NCBI GenBank assembly: GCA_958295525.1
Contig: OY282355.1
Coordinates: 124,001 to 188,000 of the forward strand
Origin: an uncultured Dehalococcoidia bacterium
Lineage (GTDB): Bacteria; Chloroflexota; Dehalococcoidia; Lucifugimonadales; Australimonadaceae
Direction: 5' to 3'
DNA length: 64,000 nt
In this document: positions 24,840-34,238 of the stretch, one piece after another
How positions within the stretch are numbered: the first letter of the stretch is position 1
Layout: each line of letters opens with the position of its first letter
Made by a program: the position numbers and the translations under genes
Notes under the pieces: model-generated
The model's database searches: none
Seen by the model: only the letters and a program-made list of their open reading frames with translations
What the model was told of the DNA's origin: nothing

Positions 24840-25718
24840 ATGACCACCGCCCGCCGCCACGAACGCCTGCCGCCCTGGCTCAAGGTTCCCTGGCCCGGCG
24901 GCGCGAACTACCTCCAACTCCGCCGGACGCTGCGCGGCGCCGAACTCCACACCGTCTGCGAGGAGGCGCGCTGCCCCAACATCGGCGACTGCTGGGAGCG
25001 CAAGTCCGCGACCTTTATGCTGCTCGGCGACGTCTGCACCCGCGCCTGCCGCTACTGCGCCGTGACCAGCGGCAAGCCCGCGCCCCCCGACCCCGCCGAG
25101 CCCGCCCGCCTCGCCCGCACCGTCGAGCGCCTCGGTCTGCGCTACTGCGTCATCACCTCCGTCGACCGCGACGACCTGTCGGACGGCGGCGCGTCCGCCT
25201 TCGCCGAAAGCATCCGCCTCATCAAAGAGCGCGCCCCTGATTGCGAGGTGGAGGTTCTCACGCCCGACTTCGGCGGCGGCGCGGACGCCCTCCGCGTCGT
25301 GCTCGATGCGGGCCCCGCCGTCTACAACCACAACATCGAAACCGTTCGGCGCGTGTTCAAGAGCGTGCGCGCGAAAGGCGACTACGATCTCTCCCTCCGG
25401 CTGCTGGCGCAGGCGCGCGAATTCGCCCCGGACATCCCGACGAAGAGCGGCATAATGGTCGGGCTCGGCGAGACGCCGGACGAGGTCTTGGAGACGATGC
25501 GCGATTTGCGGGAGGCCGGCGTCAGTCTGCTCACCATTGGCCAGTACCTGCGCCCGTCTCCCGCGCACGCGCCGATGGCCCGCTTCCTGCATCCCCGCGA
25601 ATTCGCGGAGTTGGAGCGCGCAGGCTGTGGGATGGGCTTCGCCCGCGTCGCGTCGGGCCCGCTCGTGCGCTCCTCCTACCACGCCGACGAGCAGCGCGCC
25701 GCCGCCGCGCCGGCATAG
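24840..25718 (+). CDS. lipA: Lipoyl synthase
   Basis: 292 aa radical SAM enzyme that inserts two sulfurs into octanoyl-protein to give lipoyl cofactor. The auxiliary cluster cysteines are in CEEARCPNIGDC, the radical cluster in CTRACRYC, and the C-terminal RSSYHA supplies the Ser ligand of the auxiliary cluster. It starts at ATG 24840, divergent from the amidohydrolase operon. Its last 67 bases are duplicated about 400 bases downstream. Confidence 0.96.
   Translation: MTTARRHERLPPWLKVPWPGGANYLQLRRTLRGAELHTVCEEARCPNIGDCWERKSATFMLLGDVCTRACRYCAVTSGKPAPPDPAEPARLARTVERLGLRYCVITSVDRDDLSDGGASAFAESIRLIKERAPDCEVEVLTPDFGGGADALRVVLDAGPAVYNHNIETVRRVFKSVRAKGDYDLSLRLLAQAREFAPDIPTKSGIMVGLGETPDEVLETMRDLREAGVSLLTIGQYLRPSPAHAPMARFLHPREFAELERAGCGMGFARVASGPLVRSSYHADEQRAAAAPA
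25652..25718 (+). repeat. 3' end of lipA, original copy of a direct duplication
   Basis: The last 22 codons of lipA. They match 26049-26118, including an unbroken run of about 27 bases spanning CCACGCCGACGAGCAGCGCG. Confidence 0.85.
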
Positions 25719-25853
25719 AGACGGAGGGCGGCGCCTTCGCGCGTTGCGGAATGTCGGATTGAATTGCGGACACGTGGTTATTGCGCGAAGGCGAGGAACG
25801 CAACGCAGAAGGCGAGCATCGCGTCTACGTAGACGTCTTATTAGCGGGGCCTT

Positions 25854-25968
25854 CTCATCGCGTTCTTCTCGTCGCGCTAGGGAGAAGCGGCGGCGCGGAG
25901 GCGCAAGGTTGGCGCACGGAGGGCCAGCGAGGGCGGGCAGCAGCAGCGAAGGGCGGGCGGGCTACGCG
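25854..25968 (+). repeat. Inverted-repeat copy A of the acd/tctA intergenic junction
   Basis: Matches the reverse complement of 35425-35537 with only a two-base indel and about two substitutions. It includes the last eight codons of tctA (LIAFFSSR and TAG at 25878-25880) and the spacer up to the last codons of the dehydrogenase. Confidence 0.9.
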
Positions 25969-26048
25969 ACGTTGGACTTCAAGACGGAGGGCGTCCCCAG
26001 CCCGCGCTTCACGCTGGACATTTATTAGGTCGCGGGCGGCGCGGCGCG

Positions 26049-26118
26049 GCGGGCCCGCTCGTCCGCTCGCTTCCACCACGCCGACGAGCAGCGCGCCGCC
26101 GCGGGCGTGGGGCGGTAG
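26049..26118 (+). repeat. Decayed second copy of the lipA 3' end
   Basis: Aligns with 25652-25718 and ends in its own in-frame TAG (26116-26118). Identity is about 85 percent by eye, with divergence concentrated at the tail. Confidence 0.85.
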
Positions 26119-26214
26119 GGACACCAAGGGCTTGCGCCAAGAGAACCGATATGATTAGAATTCTGCTGTCGCTCGGATAGAATAGAATTATTGGAAGGCG
26201 TGAGCAGGACAGCG

Positions 26215-27309
26215 ATGGCGGCTCCCAAGACAACCAAATGGGCTATAGAGCCTCACACGAAGGCGAAGCATGAAGTGCTGATGCGCTACCTGCTCGCTTG
26301 GTTCCCCATTCTGGGGCAAAGCGCATTCCCGTATATCAGATACATAGACGCCTTCGCGGGGCCTGGGAGGTATTCGGATGGCGAGGATGGCTCCCCTATC
26401 ATCGCCATCAAAACCGCGATGAAGTATCGCCACTTGATAAAGGGCAGACTATCCTTCCTGTTCTTGGAGAAGAGGCAAGACAGGGCGGATATGCTCCGAA
26501 GAGTCGTGGAGGAAATCAAGATTCCTAGTCATTTTGACGTCAAAGTGGTAGACGGAACTTTCGATGAAGAAATTGCTAATTTTGTAGATAAGCAAGCAGG
26601 AATGGTCCCTATTTTCGCTTTCATAGACCCATTTGGATGGACAGACATTCCCTTCAGTTCGATCCGGAGAATACTTACGTCCCCACATTGCGAAGTGCTC
26701 GTGAATTTTATGTACGAAGGCATCAATCGTTTCATTAGTCTGCCTGAACAAGCAGACAGTTTTGACGAGCTTTTCGGCACAGAAAATTGGCGAGAAATCA
26801 ATAAATTATCCGATCCTAATGAGAGGAAACAGGAGTTTCACAATCTGTATATGCATCAGTTGCAATCTTCGGCATATGCAAAATATGTGCGCTCATTTGA
26901 GATGAAAAACATTCGGAACAGCACCGAGTACTACCTCTTCTATGCGACCAACAGCCTTCTGGGGCTCAAGAAAATGAAAGAGGCGATGTGGAGAGTAGAC
27001 CCATCTGGTGATTTCACATTCTCCGATGCAACCAACCAAAATCAACTCGTCCTCTTTGAAAAAGGGCCGCGATCGGACATTCTCCGAGCCCAAATAATAG
27101 ACCAGTTCCACGGGCAAGAGGCAACTGTACAGGAAATCGAAGATTTCGTTATCGAAAAGACGGCGTTTCGTGAGACGCACTATAAGAAAGTTCTCAAAGA
27201 AATTGAGCATGCATATCTTGCTAGACTTGAGGTAATTAACCCTCCAGTTACGCGACGGAAAGGGACGTACCGAGATCCTTCAATGAGACTGCGGTTTGCT
27301 CCGAAATAA
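26215..27309 (+). CDS. tcmP: Three-Cys-motif partner protein TcmP
   Basis: 364 aa. Belongs to the family named for co-occurring with a CxxxxxGCxxC protein; biochemical role undescribed as far as I know. Visible features: YIRYIDAFAGPGRY near the N-terminus, resembling a methyltransferase-type nucleotide-binding loop, then LSFLFLEKRQDRAD, VPIFAFIDPFGWTDIP and VLVNFMYEGINRF. The C-terminus resembles a winged helix (VQEIEDFVIEKTAFRETHYKKVLKEIE). ATG 26215 follows AGGACAGCG; an in-frame TTG lies 24 bases upstream. Base composition is far more AT-rich than every neighbour, pointing to recent transfer. Its 3' end overlaps the convergent three-Cys partner by 62 bases. Confidence 0.85.
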   Translation: MAAPKTTKWAIEPHTKAKHEVLMRYLLAWFPILGQSAFPYIRYIDAFAGPGRYSDGEDGSPIIAIKTAMKYRHLIKGRLSFLFLEKRQDRADMLRRVVEEIKIPSHFDVKVVDGTFDEEIANFVDKQAGMVPIFAFIDPFGWTDIPFSSIRRILTSPHCEVLVNFMYEGINRFISLPEQADSFDELFGTENWREINKLSDPNERKQEFHNLYMHQLQSSAYAKYVRSFEMKNIRNSTEYYLFYATNSLLGLKKMKEAMWRVDPSGDFTFSDATNQNQLVLFEKGPRSDILRAQIIDQFHGQEATVQEIEDFVIEKTAFRETHYKKVLKEIEHAYLARLEVINPPVTRRKGTYRDPSMRLRFAPK

Positions 27310-28075
27310 GGGCAGTTCTCGGCAACCTGCTCCATAGCAGCCCGTCCAATTCTCGCCCCGCCGCTTTCTTGCCTACGCGCTTTCCGTCCTCGCTGAACGC
27401 GCCCCATTGCTTGAAGAAGAAGGGGACGCCGTGCTCTTGGCATTGATCTCTGAGGTCGCGCGCCCAGTCAATGTCCATTGGCCTGGCGCCTCTGCCACTT
27501 TCGCCGCCAACGATGACCCATTGCAGGTCGCCGTTTTCGAGCCACTGGCGGAAGTTGACGCGCTCCAGAAGAGGCTCGGCGGAGACGAATTTGACGGGAG
27601 CAGGGAGACGCGCCAGCACGCTGAGGCGCGGGGCGTACTTCTGATTCTCGACGGACGTTCCGATCCAGACGTTCGCGGGCCAGCCGCCGGGGAAGCGGTC
27701 TGCGTACTCGTTCCACCAGGCGACGGCGCGGCCGGGGCGCTTCGTGAGCGCTTGGAAGATATGGCCATGCCGCTCGGCGGCTTCCTGCATCACGGAGAAC
27801 GCCTCGAAAATGAACGGGAACGAAACGTCCGGGTGAAACAGGTCGGCCATGCTGTTGACGAACACGCGCCGGGGCGTTTTCCACGTGAGCGGAGCACTGA
27901 GCCGCTCAGGGAACTCCCGCACGATATTGGGGGATTCCTCGTAGCCGCGCACGTTCATCGCCCGCAAGCGGGGGTAGAGCGCGAACATATAGCAGTGGTC
28001 GCAGCCGGGCGAGATGCGCGTGCACCCCGTGACGGGGTTCCACGTTTCGTCCGTCCATTCGATAGAGGAGCCCAT
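27248..28075 (-). CDS. Phage Gp37/Gp68-type (DUF5131) three-Cys-motif protein
   Basis: 275 aa. Starts IEWTDETWNPVTGCTRISPGCDHCY; the three cysteines C-x6-C-x2-C define the motif and suggest an iron-sulfur or radical SAM-like site. Conserved SMADLFHPDV, QALTKRP, WIGTSVENQ, FVSAEPLL, IVGGESGRGARP and FFFKQWG follow. These proteins are known from phages and mobile elements; the reaction is unknown. The family usually ends soon after GRELDG; here about 30 extra residues are encoded antisense to the tcmP 3' end. ATG 28075 has GGGAGGGTAGGG upstream and follows a 51-codon methyltransferase fragment. Confidence 0.85.
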   Translation of the reverse strand: MGSSIEWTDETWNPVTGCTRISPGCDHCYMFALYPRLRAMNVRGYEESPNIVREFPERLSAPLTWKTPRRVFVNSMADLFHPDVSFPFIFEAFSVMQEAAERHGHIFQALTKRPGRAVAWWNEYADRFPGGWPANVWIGTSVENQKYAPRLSVLARLPAPVKFVSAEPLLERVNFRQWLENGDLQWVIVGGESGRGARPMDIDWARDLRDQCQEHGVPFFFKQWGAFSEDGKRVGKKAAGRELDGLLWSRLPRTALISEQTAVSLKDLGTSLSVA

Positions 28076-28077
28076 CC

Positions 28078-28233
28078 CTACCCTCCCCCGGAGCGCGAGA
28101 CGTGCGTGCCGCGGGCTTTCGTCTCCTCGCGCAGTTGCTCGATGGGGTCGACGGTCGCGCTGTTCATTCCGCGCAGGACGTCGAGGTTGCCGGCAATGAA
28201 GAGGGTGCGGTTGGCTATCGTGTTCTCGGCCAT
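28078..28233 (-). pseudogene. Truncated DNA methyltransferase N-terminus (51-codon frame)
   Basis: Reads ATG 28233 to TAG 28078. Residues 8-29 (NRTLFIAGNLDVLRGMNS) match the N-terminal motif of N4/N6 DNA methyltransferases, where it is normally followed by a VDLIYLDPPF catalytic motif. Here the sequence switches after TVD to PIEQLREETKARGTHVSRSGGG, so the catalytic DPPF and the rest are deleted. It stops two bases before the ATG of the three-Cys gene and may still act as its translational leader. Confidence 0.6.
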
Positions 28234-28402
28234 CGGGCGTTTCTCCGGGTCGGTCGTGGTTGGATTGTGCGGCGGCGCGGGGCGGGGCGCAAGGGGCGCG
28301 TGTCCGATCCGGGGGCGCGGGGTTCCCGCTGACGCGGGCAGGGGCGGGACAGAGGGGCGGGGCGAACTGCAGCGACTATGCTATGATAGAGGCGCCAAGA
28401 GG

Positions 28403-28870
28403 ATGGCGCGCATGGTCATCGCAGAGAAACCGATTACGTCTCACTCCCGCCACCGGGACAGACTCTTCGCGCATTCGAAAGAGATGATCGCGAACGGCGA
28501 CCGGCTGCAGGCGTGCGAAAAGATCTGGGGCTCCGTCGCGCATGCGCTGAAAGTGGTGGCCGACCGCCGCGACTGGTCTTACGAATCGCATGTGGACGCG
28601 CTGGTCATCGCCGCCCACGTCGGACGGCTAACGAATGACGACCGCGTGGAGTTGCTGTTCCGCCGCGTGCAGGACTTGCACGGGAACTTCTACGCGGACA
28701 CGCTGCCGATGGACGCGATCAAGCGGACGAGGGCCGACGCGCAAACGCTCTTGAAACTCCTCAAGCAGGCCAACAGGGAACTGCCCCGCGACGCCCCGAT
28801 GCCTACGGACGCGCGCTATTTGGAGCGCGTCCGCCGCCGCCGTCGTCGCGTTGAGTCGCAGGCGGGCTAA
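28403..28870 (+). CDS. PaREP1-like (HEPN-type helical) protein, copy 1
   Basis: 155 aa, mostly helical. The segment HSKEMIANGDRLQACEKIWG...HALKVVADRRDW is the PaREP1 signature, and RVQDLHGNFYAD follows. A paralogue lies at 52306-52959 with matching QASEKIWG, VADRRGW and HVNFYED. PaREP1 proteins are small helical proteins, first described in Pyrobaculum, of unknown function; a link to HEPN/MNT toxin-antitoxin modules is plausible because of the fold, but no nucleotidyltransferase is adjacent. The start is 28403 or the in-frame ATG 28412. Confidence 0.65.
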   Translation: MARMVIAEKPITSHSRHRDRLFAHSKEMIANGDRLQACEKIWGSVAHALKVVADRRDWSYESHVDALVIAAHVGRLTNDDRVELLFRRVQDLHGNFYADTLPMDAIKRTRADAQTLLKLLKQANRELPRDAPMPTDARYLERVRRRRRRVESQAG

Positions 28871-31604: not shown

Positions 31605-32429
31605 TTACACGCCCAGGGACGCCGCATACGCCGCCCGCCGCGTCACGCCCAACTCGCGCGCGACCTGCGCCGCGGCGTCGCGCCGGCTCAGCCCGGACGC
31701 CCGCGCCGCCGCCATCGCCTCCGCGACGCGCTCCCCGCTGGGCGGCGAGTCCGCCGGGGCGGGCCGCGCCGCACCCTCGACGACAATCGTGAACTCGCCG
31801 CGAGGAGCGTCGAAATGCGCGGCGGCCTCGCTGACGGTTCCCCGAAAGACCTCCTCGTGCGCTTTCGTCAACTCGCGGCAAACGGCGACGCGGCGGTCGC
31901 CAAGCGTCGCCCCAATATCGGCGAGCGCCGCCGCCAGCCGGTGCGGCGCCTCGAACAGCGCGAGCGGCGCGGCGAACGACGAAGCCTCGGCGAGCGCGGC
32001 GCGGCGCGCCTTCCCCGTCCGCGGCAGGAACCCCAGAAAATGGAATGCGTCCGTCGGAAACCCCGAAACGGCGAGCGCGGCGGTGACCGCCGACGGGCCG
32101 GGAACGCTCACGACCGCGAATCCGGCCTGCGCCGCCGCCGCAACCAATTCCGCGCCCGGATCGCTCACGCCAGGCGCGCCCGCGTCCGTCACGAGCGCGA
32201 CGTCGCCCTCGCGGAGCGCGTCCAGCAGCGCCGGAATCCGCTTCCGCGCGTTGTGCCGGTGGTGGCTCGCCATCCGCGTCCGCGCCCCGATGCGGTCGAG
32301 CAGATTGCGCGTCCGCCGCGTGTCCTCCGCCGCGATCAGCGCAACCTCCCGCAGAACGCGCGCGGCGCGCGGCGACAGATCATCCATGTTGCCGATAGGC
32401 GTGGCGACGACGTACAGCGTTCCGCTCAT
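31605..32429 (-). CDS. rsmI: 16S rRNA (cytidine-1402 2'-O) methyltransferase
   Basis: 274 aa SAM-dependent tetrapyrrole-methylase-fold enzyme that 2'-O-methylates C1402 in the ribosomal P-site. Motifs: LYVVATPIGNMDDLSPRA, AAEDTRRT, LVTDAGAPGVSDPG, VPGPSAVTAAL, FLGFLPR and ALFEAPHR. A C-terminal helix-turn-helix-like extension is present. Its ATG overlaps the stop of the TOPRIM-like gene upstream (ATGA), so in this genome it is the last cistron of an ATPase operon. Confidence 0.96.
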   Translation of the reverse strand: MSGTLYVVATPIGNMDDLSPRAARVLREVALIAAEDTRRTRNLLDRIGARTRMASHHRHNARKRIPALLDALREGDVALVTDAGAPGVSDPGAELVAAAAQAGFAVVSVPGPSAVTAALAVSGFPTDAFHFLGFLPRTGKARRAALAEASSFAAPLALFEAPHRLAAALADIGATLGDRRVAVCRELTKAHEEVFRGTVSEAAAHFDAPRGEFTIVVEGAARPAPADSPPSGERVAEAMAAARASGLSRRDAAAQVARELGVTRRAAYAASLGV

Positions 32430-33007
32430 AGGCGCGGATTCGCGGCGTCCGGCGTCTCGTCTTGCAACTTCTCAATTCCGTTCAGCAGCGCGTGAAAACT
32501 CGCTGACCGGTTGCCCTCGCGGGTGAGCCGCGCCGCCATGCGCCGCGCCCCGTCCACCTTTTGGAATTCGGGGGCAAGGCGCCTCAGGGCGGCGGACGGA
32601 TGCTGGACCGCGTCGGGATTTCTGAATCGGGCGCGACGGCCAACGCCGCGCAGTTTCTCGTTGGCGTAGGCGTCGGCCAGGGCATCGGAATCGCCCAAGT
32701 ACCATGCCTCTATCTCCTGGCAGGCGATACGCACGACGGAATCGCCGCGTCCGGCATCCTCGCATAGGGCGGCCAACCGGCGCTTCAAGGCGACGCAATC
32801 TTCGCCGTCGTTGTCGCGCACGACGAGAAAACGCACGCCGGGCTCGCGCCAAGCCCGCAACTTGCGCGGAACGCTCTTTTCCAAATCCTGCTTGCCTTCG
32901 TGCGCCACGCACTGAAAGATCAGGCTGGGATAGAGGCGGGGAAGCAAACCCTCCAGCAAATGCTTCAAGGATGGCTCTTCCAGCAGGAAAACCACCTTGC
33001 CCGTCAC
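32426..33007 (-). CDS. DUF4276-like TOPRIM-fold protein (RloB/AbiLii-like)
   Basis: 193 aa. Begins VTGKVVFLLEEPSLKHLLEG, where the Glu of FLLEEPS is in the place of the TOPRIM glutamate; FLVVRDNDGEDC gives the DxD-type acidic pair, then IACQEIEAWYLGD. These are the landmarks of DUF4276. Such proteins pair with AAA ATPases in phage-resistance loci. The GTG at 33007 overlaps the ATPase stop (GTGA), and its own stop overlaps rsmI. Nuclease activity is inference. Confidence 0.75.
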   Translation of the reverse strand: MTGKVVFLLEEPSLKHLLEGLLPRLYPSLIFQCVAHEGKQDLEKSVPRKLRAWREPGVRFLVVRDNDGEDCVALKRRLAALCEDAGRGDSVVRIACQEIEAWYLGDSDALADAYANEKLRGVGRRARFRNPDAVQHPSAALRRLAPEFQKVDGARRMAARLTREGNRSASFHALLNGIEKLQDETPDAANPRL

Positions 33008-34176
33008 GGCGCGGCTCTCTCGAAGAAGCCTTGTTTCCACAGCGCGCCGGGCAAATCGCCCTCGGCGGCGAAGTTATGCAGGAGTTCGCTGTCGCCCACG
33101 CGCCTTACGGAAGTAAAACCATCGCGTTTAGCGAGGTGGAATATCTCGTTGAGTTCCACGCCGTTCAGAAAGTCCGGCGAGTGCGTGGAGACGAACGCTT
33201 GGCCGCCGCGAGTCGAGTAATCGCGGAATTCCTCCGCCAGTTCCCGCAGCAACTCGGGGTAGAGTTGGTTCTCCGGCTCCTCCACGGCAAGCAGCGGATG
33301 CGGTTTAGGATCGTAGAGCAGGACCAGGTAGGCGAACATTTTGAGCGTGCCGTCCGAGACGTACCGCGCCACGAACGGGTCGCGGAACGCGCCGTCTGTG
33401 AACCGCAACACGAGGCGCCCGTCTTCCGTCGCCCGCGCCTCGACATTGCTTACCCCGGGAACGCGGACCTGCATCCGCTCCAGCACGCGCTCGAACAAAT
33501 CAGGGTGATTCTGATAGAGGTACTGAGCGACCAGCGCAACGTTGTCTCCGCTGGGCGACAGATGCTCGGCGTAGCCCGCGTCCATGCCTGGCCGCGCCTC
33601 CGTGACGTGGAAGTCCGAGACGTGCCAGTTCTCGATGAGGCTTCGGAACTCCGCGACCACCCGGAATTCGCGGAATTGCCCCAACCCTTTGATCGCCAAG
33701 ACGCTCGGGTCGTCCAGCGCGTACCATTCCCGCTCGCCGCCAACGCCCTCTTGTCCGTAGGCGGACTCATTCGTGATGGCGGTTCCCTGCCCTCGGGAGA
33801 AGTCCACGAAATGCCAGGGCAGGCCACGCTGCCCTCTGCGGTAGCGGAGAACCTCGCGCTCCACCACGGCGCGGCCTCCGTCGGACCCGATCTCAAGGCG
33901 GTACGTCGCCAACCGCCCGCCGCTCTCGCGGAACCGCGCCTCTATCCCTATAGGCCCGGCCTCGTCTCTGCTCACCAGTTCGCGGAAGCCGCCCCTGCGC
34001 TCCACGGCGGAAGCCGCATTATGCGTCAGAGCGTCTCTCAAGAAAGCGAACACGTCGAACAGCGTTGACTTGCCCGAACCGTTCGCGCCTACGATCACCG
34101 CGAGCGACGGCAACTTGTCGAACACCGCCTTGCGGAACACGCGGTAGTTCGTGATTTCAATGCGCTCTATCTTCAT
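33004..34176 (-). CDS. AAA-family ATPase (OLD/RloA/AbiLi-like)
   Basis: 390 aa ABC/SMC-type ATPase. Starts IERIEITNYRVF, with Walker A VGANGSGKST at about residues 27-36. Later come the ABC-like signature region (ARYVSDGTLKMFAYL), Walker B with catalytic Glu (LLAVEEPENQLYP) and the switch FVSTHSPDFLN. Unlike OLD itself it lacks a fused TOPRIM domain; that domain is supplied by the next gene. The ATG at 34176 follows GGAGAGAGCAAGG; it is divergent from the acyl-CoA dehydrogenase. Probably a two-protein abortive-infection type defence module. Confidence 0.8.
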   Translation of the reverse strand: MKIERIEITNYRVFRKAVFDKLPSLAVIVGANGSGKSTLFDVFAFLRDALTHNAASAVERRGGFRELVSRDEAGPIGIEARFRESGGRLATYRLEIGSDGGRAVVEREVLRYRRGQRGLPWHFVDFSRGQGTAITNESAYGQEGVGGEREWYALDDPSVLAIKGLGQFREFRVVAEFRSLIENWHVSDFHVTEARPGMDAGYAEHLSPSGDNVALVAQYLYQNHPDLFERVLERMQVRVPGVSNVEARATEDGRLVLRFTDGAFRDPFVARYVSDGTLKMFAYLVLLYDPKPHPLLAVEEPENQLYPELLRELAEEFRDYSTRGGQAFVSTHSPDFLNGVELNEIFHLAKRDGFTSVRRVGDSELLHNFAAEGDLPGALWKQGFFERAAP

Positions 34177-34209
34177 CCTTGCTCTCTCCGGCGCGGGCGC
34201 GGCCTCTAT

Positions 34210-34238
34210 GTTACACGCTCCCACCGAATCTCTATACT
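34210..34238 (+). promoter_or_regulatory. Probable promoter of the acyl-CoA dehydrogenase gene
   Basis: TATACT (34233-34238) is a good -10 box, 17 bases after GTTACA (34210-34215), which matches four of six -35 positions. It lies 36 bases before the start codon, in the divergent gap with the ATPase gene. Confidence 0.5.

Follow-up and report, generated by a model that had tools for sequence, protein, structure and literature searches.

The locus described here raises the question of what is done by two proteins, TcmP and a DUF5131 protein, whose genes converge and overlap. The pair lies in a 64,000-nucleotide stretch of contig OY282355.1 (positions 124,001 to 188,000; the window) from an uncultured Dehalococcoidia bacterium. 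We consider it probable that the two genes make up a mobile module whose enzymes modify a base in nucleic acid, with the DUF5131 protein acting as a radical-SAM enzyme and TcmP as a methyltransferase, and that it serves in conflict between mobile elements and their hosts. The gene pair is arranged as follows.

26215–27309, plus strand: tcmP, 364 residues (TIGR04474; PADLOC model PDC-M30A, 3e-70)
27248–28075, minus strand: DUF5131 gene, 275 residues (PF07505; TIGR04471, 1e-7; PADLOC models PDC-M30B and PDC-M41B)
27248–27309: 62-bp tail-to-tail overlap, from the last base of the DUF5131 gene (27248) to the tcmP stop (27309)

TcmP scored 202.9 bits against TIGR04474 (curated cut-off 53), and the DUF5131 protein scored 301.6 bits against PF07505 (gathering cut-off 28.9) over its full length (profile positions 2–243 of 243). 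The adjacent genes also matched the PADLOC models of a candidate system, TcmP at 3.3e-70 for PDC-M30A and its partner at 1.8e-80 for PDC-M30B, with a slightly better score for PDC-M41B (6.1e-84). The window locus is an additional member of this listed candidate system, PDC-M30/M41. Each gene is present in a single copy in the 2.51-Mb genome. Within the overlap the C-terminus of TcmP resembles other TcmP ends (R-x-KGTY-x-D...LRF) and the last ~20 residues of the DUF5131 protein have no counterpart in most relatives, so it is probably the DUF5131 gene that was extended into tcmP. The GC content of tcmP is 46.7% (GC3 53%) and that of the DUF5131 gene 62.8% (GC3 80%); the neighboring genes lipA, ispB, and metG have a GC content of 67–72% and GC3 of 87–91%, and the whole window has a GC content of 67.5%. 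The initial annotation of this DNA had described a tail-to-tail pair with a 62-base overlap, a strongly AT-rich tcmP, and a partner of host-like composition. All three observations were borne out, with the partner lying slightly below the host level.

The pair occupies a small island, with these further features.

25706–28864: island, absent from the corresponding site of five congeners (blastn and tblastn of the window against congener regions G402–G406)
26038–26101, plus strand: imperfect copy (~80–90%, ~64 bp) of the lipA 3'-end, close to the island's left boundary (original at ~25642–25705)
28078–28233, minus strand: 51-residue remnant of an HNH-type DNA methylase; its N-terminal ~31 residues are homologous, after which similarity ends and a stop follows
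28397–28870, plus strand: PaREP1/PaREP8-family protein (PF05942, 5e-10), the last gene of the island
C1:70671, 561804, 800669, 1392505, 1572284, and 1609791 of the same genome (G000): further copies of the remnant's family

DNA similarity to the five congeners, all of the same genus, ends at 25705 and restarts at 28865, which identifies the intervening 3.16 kb as a lineage-specific replacement. In the congeners lipA, ispB, metG, and, where visible, rsmI are collinear, and the lipA–ispB interval of ~2.16 kb carries one gene of the enolase superfamily and one for a 2-hydroxyacid dehydrogenase in 5/5 cases (L294–L298), names that we assigned by reading the sequences of the displaced genes. The island contains tcmP, the DUF5131 gene, the 51-residue remnant, and the PaREP1-family gene; no integrase was found in it. 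The 64-bp lipA copy may be the scar of an integration or recombination event, and only hints at an integrated element with att sites at lipA. The PaREP1/PaREP8 family is one named from archaea.

A small island, and a truncated DNA methyltransferase start directly upstream of the DUF5131 gene, had both been proposed at the outset; the island is now bounded, and residues ~1–31 of the remnant show 50–69% identity to the N-terminus of a DNA methylase/HNH family in Chloroflexota genomes. The six further copies in the same genome have long open frames that share this N-terminus and mark a family expanded within one 2.5-Mb genome. The remnant had no match on plasmids or phages. Elsewhere in the window, at 32426–34224 on the minus strand, DUF4276 and AAA_21 ATPase genes match PADLOC HEC-01 (3e-61 and 4e-172); this HEC-01-like pair, a second candidate for defense, is 4.3 kb away, with housekeeping genes in between.

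Two features of the DUF5131 protein bear on its chemistry.

27992–28024, minus strand: C18-x6-C25-x2-C28, which alignment and conservation suggest to be the CX3CX2C motif of radical-SAM proteins, lengthened by three residues
27494–27508, minus strand: GGESG, residues 190–194, invariant; a candidate SAM-contact motif from its conservation

The C-x6-C-x2-C motif picked out by the initial annotation is present, and C18, C25, and C28 are invariant among 50 DUF5131 relatives, as is no other cysteine. An AlphaFold2 model built from 50 sequences (pLDDT 91.9) gave spore photoproduct lyase (SPL; 4rh0) as its best structural match (Z 13.6, rmsd 3.0, 197 aligned), followed by RlmN (Z 11.2), viperin, lipoyl synthase, lysine aminomutase, and other radical-SAM enzymes. 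Foldseek alone was indecisive with this model, returning uninformative TIM barrels; re-alignment of the Foldseek candidates with VIA separated the radical-SAM chains, which filled the first 20 rows (Z 9.0–13.6), from unrelated barrels (Z < 9). The protein also matched the radical-SAM family TIGR04471 over residues 13–223, at a score far below the family cut-off. The DUF5131 profile segment GCtkvspgCknCYa aligned with GCE---FGCAYCYA and GCR---HDCRYCYAK in distant proteins across a three-residue gap, and the partner protein at one TcmP locus (L021) matched both Pfam Radical_SAM (2e-10) and DUF5131 (7e-5). Searches with the single sequence and the profile against solved structures gave no useful match, and hhalign of DUF5131 against SPL-like partners gave nothing, one side having only 7 similar sequences.

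The spacing in DUF5131 is C-x6-C-x2-C instead of the canonical CX3CX2C. Nevertheless, three-cysteine spacings other than CX3CX2C are known in the radical-SAM superfamily (PMC3742179). From the fold match, the TIGR04471 match, the gapped alignment, and the L021 partner, the motif most likely represents the cluster motif of radical-SAM enzymes into which three residues have been inserted. The metal-sulfur or radical center predicted by the initial annotation thereby gains support from the modeled fold and the motif.

The top fold match raises the further possibility that DUF5131 is an SPL-like enzyme that reverses DNA damage, with TcmP as its recruiter, and some alternative TcmP partners (below) do match SPL models. 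However, SPL requires a fourth cysteine (C140/C141) as hydrogen donor (PMC3742179), and this residue has no invariant counterpart among the 50 DUF5131 sequences: beyond the three invariant cysteines there is C212, conserved in 47/50 (94%) and far from the motif. Lyase chemistry is therefore not implied for DUF5131. Moreover, TcmP has kept its presumed catalytic residues, which argues that it is not merely a recruiter, and we regard damage reversal as quite improbable.

TcmP is best read as an RlmJ-like class I SAM-dependent methyltransferase with a C-terminal winged helix, an assignment that draws on the model and on the following sequence features.

26266–26268, plus strand: codon of K18, invariant (48/48); matched to RlmJ K18 by position only
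26347–26367, plus strand: motif I, DAFAGPG, predicted from alignment and conservation to bind SAM
26626–26637, plus strand: motif IV, D138-P-F-G, aligned with DPPY of RlmJ
27019–27201, plus strand: GMT-like wHTH domain (PF22560)

The TcmP model (pLDDT 92.7) best matched RlmJ 6qe5 (Z 17.5, rmsd 3.2, 210 aligned), followed by CmoA-like proteins and Trm1 (Z 14.9). A single-sequence search against solved structures gave no useful match; a profile search found RlmJ chains weakly (E 0.013), with D138 aligned to the motif-IV aspartate of RlmJ. Both K18 and D138 are invariant in 48/48 TcmP sequences, and RlmJ activity is abolished by K18A or D164A (PMC3814359). Motif IV is DPFG instead of DPPY, so the methylated position is not readable from it; DPFG is also found in an archaeal Trm1. 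Some members of the family are short and are without the winged helix. The methyltransferase-like loop noticed earlier thus finds its counterpart in a predicted methyltransferase fold with conserved candidate catalytic positions.

These matches could mean that the module modifies tRNA or rRNA, TcmP acting like RlmJ or Trm1 and DUF5131 adding a radical step, for example to change translation under stress or infection. The best TcmP fold is that of RlmJ, Trm1 follows lower down and has the DPFG motif, and RlmN is among the DUF5131 fold matches. Against this, DNA binding is the more typical function of a winged helix and the top DUF5131 fold match, SPL, acts on DNA. An RNA target is conceivable but on the doubtful side.

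The two families were then counted, over their family cut-offs, in 400 Chloroflexota genomes. Both were found in 54 genomes, TcmP only in 14, DUF5131 only in 30 (84 with DUF5131 in all), and neither in 302, giving a Fisher p of 6e-32, uncorrected for the relatedness of the genomes. DUF5131 lay within 5 kb of 55 of the 81 TcmP hits, nearly always at less than 0.5 kb. Co-occurrence thus goes far beyond chance. In the window's own family both genes occur in 2 of 11 genomes, convergent and at another genomic site, and neither occurs in the other 9. Among 137 located pairs, in which some loci repeat a genome, TcmP comes first in 69 and DUF5131 in 45, while 21 are convergent, 1 is divergent, and 1 is fused. 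The fusion (L082:7971–9575) is a natural single open reading frame with DUF5131 followed by TcmP. Convergent overlaps of 4 bp each occur in Gordonia phages and on the plasmids pNOCA01 and pUSK13_1, and convergent overlaps were also seen in several genomes.

The pair was found repeatedly in bacteria and archaea alike, on phages and plasmids as well as in genomes. Its carriers include temperate phages and conjugative plasmids, in line with the earlier claim of recurrence on mobile elements, and also chromosomes with no surrounding element, as here. No third constant gene was found around 68 pairs. Of 80 viral contigs with DUF5131 (loci L149–L227), 59 had no TcmP close to it, which indicates that it is able to work without TcmP. 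An alignment of diverse TcmPs contained no patch conserved enough for a scan of viral contigs.

Tight co-evolution of the two proteins was considered and rejected. The mirror-tree correlation was weak (r 0.28), and the closest relatives of the window's DUF5131 protein (65–67% identity) are paired with TcmPs only 23–38% identical to the window's, some of which are of the short type. The two genes re-assort, which fits their differing base composition.

Re-assortment extends to the kind of partner. Of 23 loci with a TcmP hit and no DUF5131 gene nearby, 12 have an adjacent radical-SAM gene, with the canonical CX3CX2C motif in 11 and a close variant in 1; the remainder lie at contig edges (5), lie beside glycolytic genes (4), or are degraded (2). 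Seven of eight representative partners scanned matched SPL models and the eighth matched Pfam Radical_SAM, and some radical-SAM partners of TcmP match TIGR04470. Two of these TcmP/radical-SAM pairs (L239 and L246) are again convergent and tail-to-tail, and on the archaeal plasmid pHALXA02, from Halopiger, two genes with a radical-SAM annotation lie next to TcmP. TcmP is accompanied by a radical-SAM protein of whichever kind, DUF5131 being the commonest.

The genes beside glycolytic genes (L242, L244, L247, and L249) are divergent, short TcmP-family members next to enolase and GAPDH, without a radical-SAM neighbor. They come from Chloroflexota of the window's class, and could be a housekeeping offshoot of the TcmP family.

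An anti-phage role of the pair is plausible. In its strict form, the pair would sense or modify phage nucleic acid, or host RNA upon infection, and block phage growth. PADLOC lists PDC-M30/M41 among its candidate defense systems, and PDC-M30 was found in 32/100 Pseudomonas aeruginosa strains, 68.8% of which were phage-resistant, a strain-level correlation only (PMC10855318). In Sinorhizobium meliloti the TcmP SMa2243 and the phage-defense gene hna have been grouped in one putative transcription unit (PMC12445080). On the pSymA sequence we find, in order, a gene matching PDC-S28, TcmP, a second TcmP, and DUF5131; from locus-tag order the first of these would be hna, placing the pair beside Hna. 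Wadjet genes adjoin the pair on pUSK13_1, McrBC and an N6 methylase adjoin it on pNOCA01, and in Gordonia temperate phages it sits between the integrase and the immunity repressor. However, around 68 pairs the density of defense genes within 2.5 kb did not exceed that beyond 4.5 kb, phages themselves carry the genes, DUF5131 often stands alone in viral contigs, and the pair includes no nuclease, membrane protein, or comparable effector. Immunity proper is a real possibility that falls somewhat short of probable. Of the initial guess of nucleic-acid modification or phage defense, the first part stands as the likely activity, and the second part is not borne out by the neighborhoods.

The same carriers would also suit a pair that marks its own element, modifying the DNA of the carrier to defeat host restriction. 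The pair is found on temperate phages and conjugative plasmids, the DNA-methylase remnant touches the DUF5131 gene in the window, and at viral loci with DUF5131 only, DNA methylases gave 6 Pfam matches near the gene vs 1 far from it (~143 proteins each), an enrichment that is small and not significant. Yet the pair also sits, as in the window, on chromosomes that show no surrounding element, and TcmP most resembles RNA, not DNA, methyltransferases. Anti-restriction by self-marking is, as a separate explanation, rather unlikely.

We return to the two-enzyme module as the preferred explanation. The computation shows two folds with conserved residues, a recurrent pairing that includes one fusion, the exchange of DUF5131 for other radical-SAM proteins, and an island; we infer a cluster with radical chemistry, a base as substrate, a physical complex, and a biological role. 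Specifically, DUF5131 would be a divergent radical-SAM enzyme of the SPL/PA0069 kind, whose Cys-18, Cys-25, and Cys-28 would hold a [4Fe-4S] cluster and which would cleave SAM to a 5'-deoxyadenosyl radical. TcmP would draw on another SAM molecule as an ordinary methyl donor, with an exocyclic amine of the base as the probable acceptor, and would bind the target through its winged helix. Both enzymes would form one functional unit on one nucleic acid and yield a modified base, either in two steps or jointly. Plasmids, prophages, and small islands would spread the module, which most likely serves in conflict between element and host, as defense, superinfection exclusion, or self-marking. Only tentatively, and with more doubt than confidence, do we extend this to a general, so far unrecognized class of nucleic-acid hypermodification systems in which TcmP and an interchangeable radical-SAM partner would combine ordinary methylation with radical chemistry to make a new base in phage-host conflict across bacteria and archaea.

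The initial annotation had called the pair undescribed. For its biochemistry this agrees with our literature search, which found no activity for PDC-M30/M41 and no paper naming DUF5131. The co-occurrence itself was already known, as the NCBIfam name TcmP means "three-Cys-motif partner." What is new is the identity proposed for each enzyme and the rule of partner swapping: in the searchable literature we did not find DUF5131 described as radical SAM, TcmP as RlmJ-like, or the interchange rule, although earlier statements elsewhere are possible. PDC-M30/M41 is widespread, as the P. aeruginosa and Chloroflexota counts above indicate, and the enzyme classes, the residues suited to mutation, and the rule of TcmP plus any radical-SAM protein make an anonymous candidate a testable enzyme pair. 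If the pair does make a new base, a radical-SAM route would be added to the chemistry by which phages and hosts mark DNA or RNA.

Among known systems, PDC-M30 and PDC-M41 comprise the identical two protein families; they were listed in PADLOC by guilt-by-embedding, and the literature searched gives no enzymatic identity for them. Both window proteins lie far above the cut-offs of TIGR04474 and DUF5131 (PF07505, "phage Gp37/Gp68"). Known TcmP/DUF5131 pairs are mostly co-directional, whereas the window pair is convergent with its 62-bp overlap. The Radical SAM mobile pair proteins A and B (TIGR04471/TIGR04470) resemble the present system in that DUF5131 matches the former and some TcmP partners the latter, at scores far below the cut-offs; by name, however, that pair consists of two radical-SAM proteins, and here a radical-SAM protein is predicted to be joined to a methyltransferase. 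RlmJ, the 23S rRNA m6A2030 methyltransferase, is the nearest solved fold to TcmP, whose invariant Lys-18 corresponds to that of RlmJ by position and whose motif-IV aspartate does so by alignment, but TcmP differs in having DPFG for DPPY, a C-terminal winged helix, and an adjoining radical-SAM gene. SPL is the nearest solved fold to DUF5131 and likewise carries a three-cysteine motif near the N-terminal end of the barrel; DUF5131 differs in its C-x6-C-x2-C spacing in place of CX3CX2C and in the absence of the fourth catalytic cysteine.
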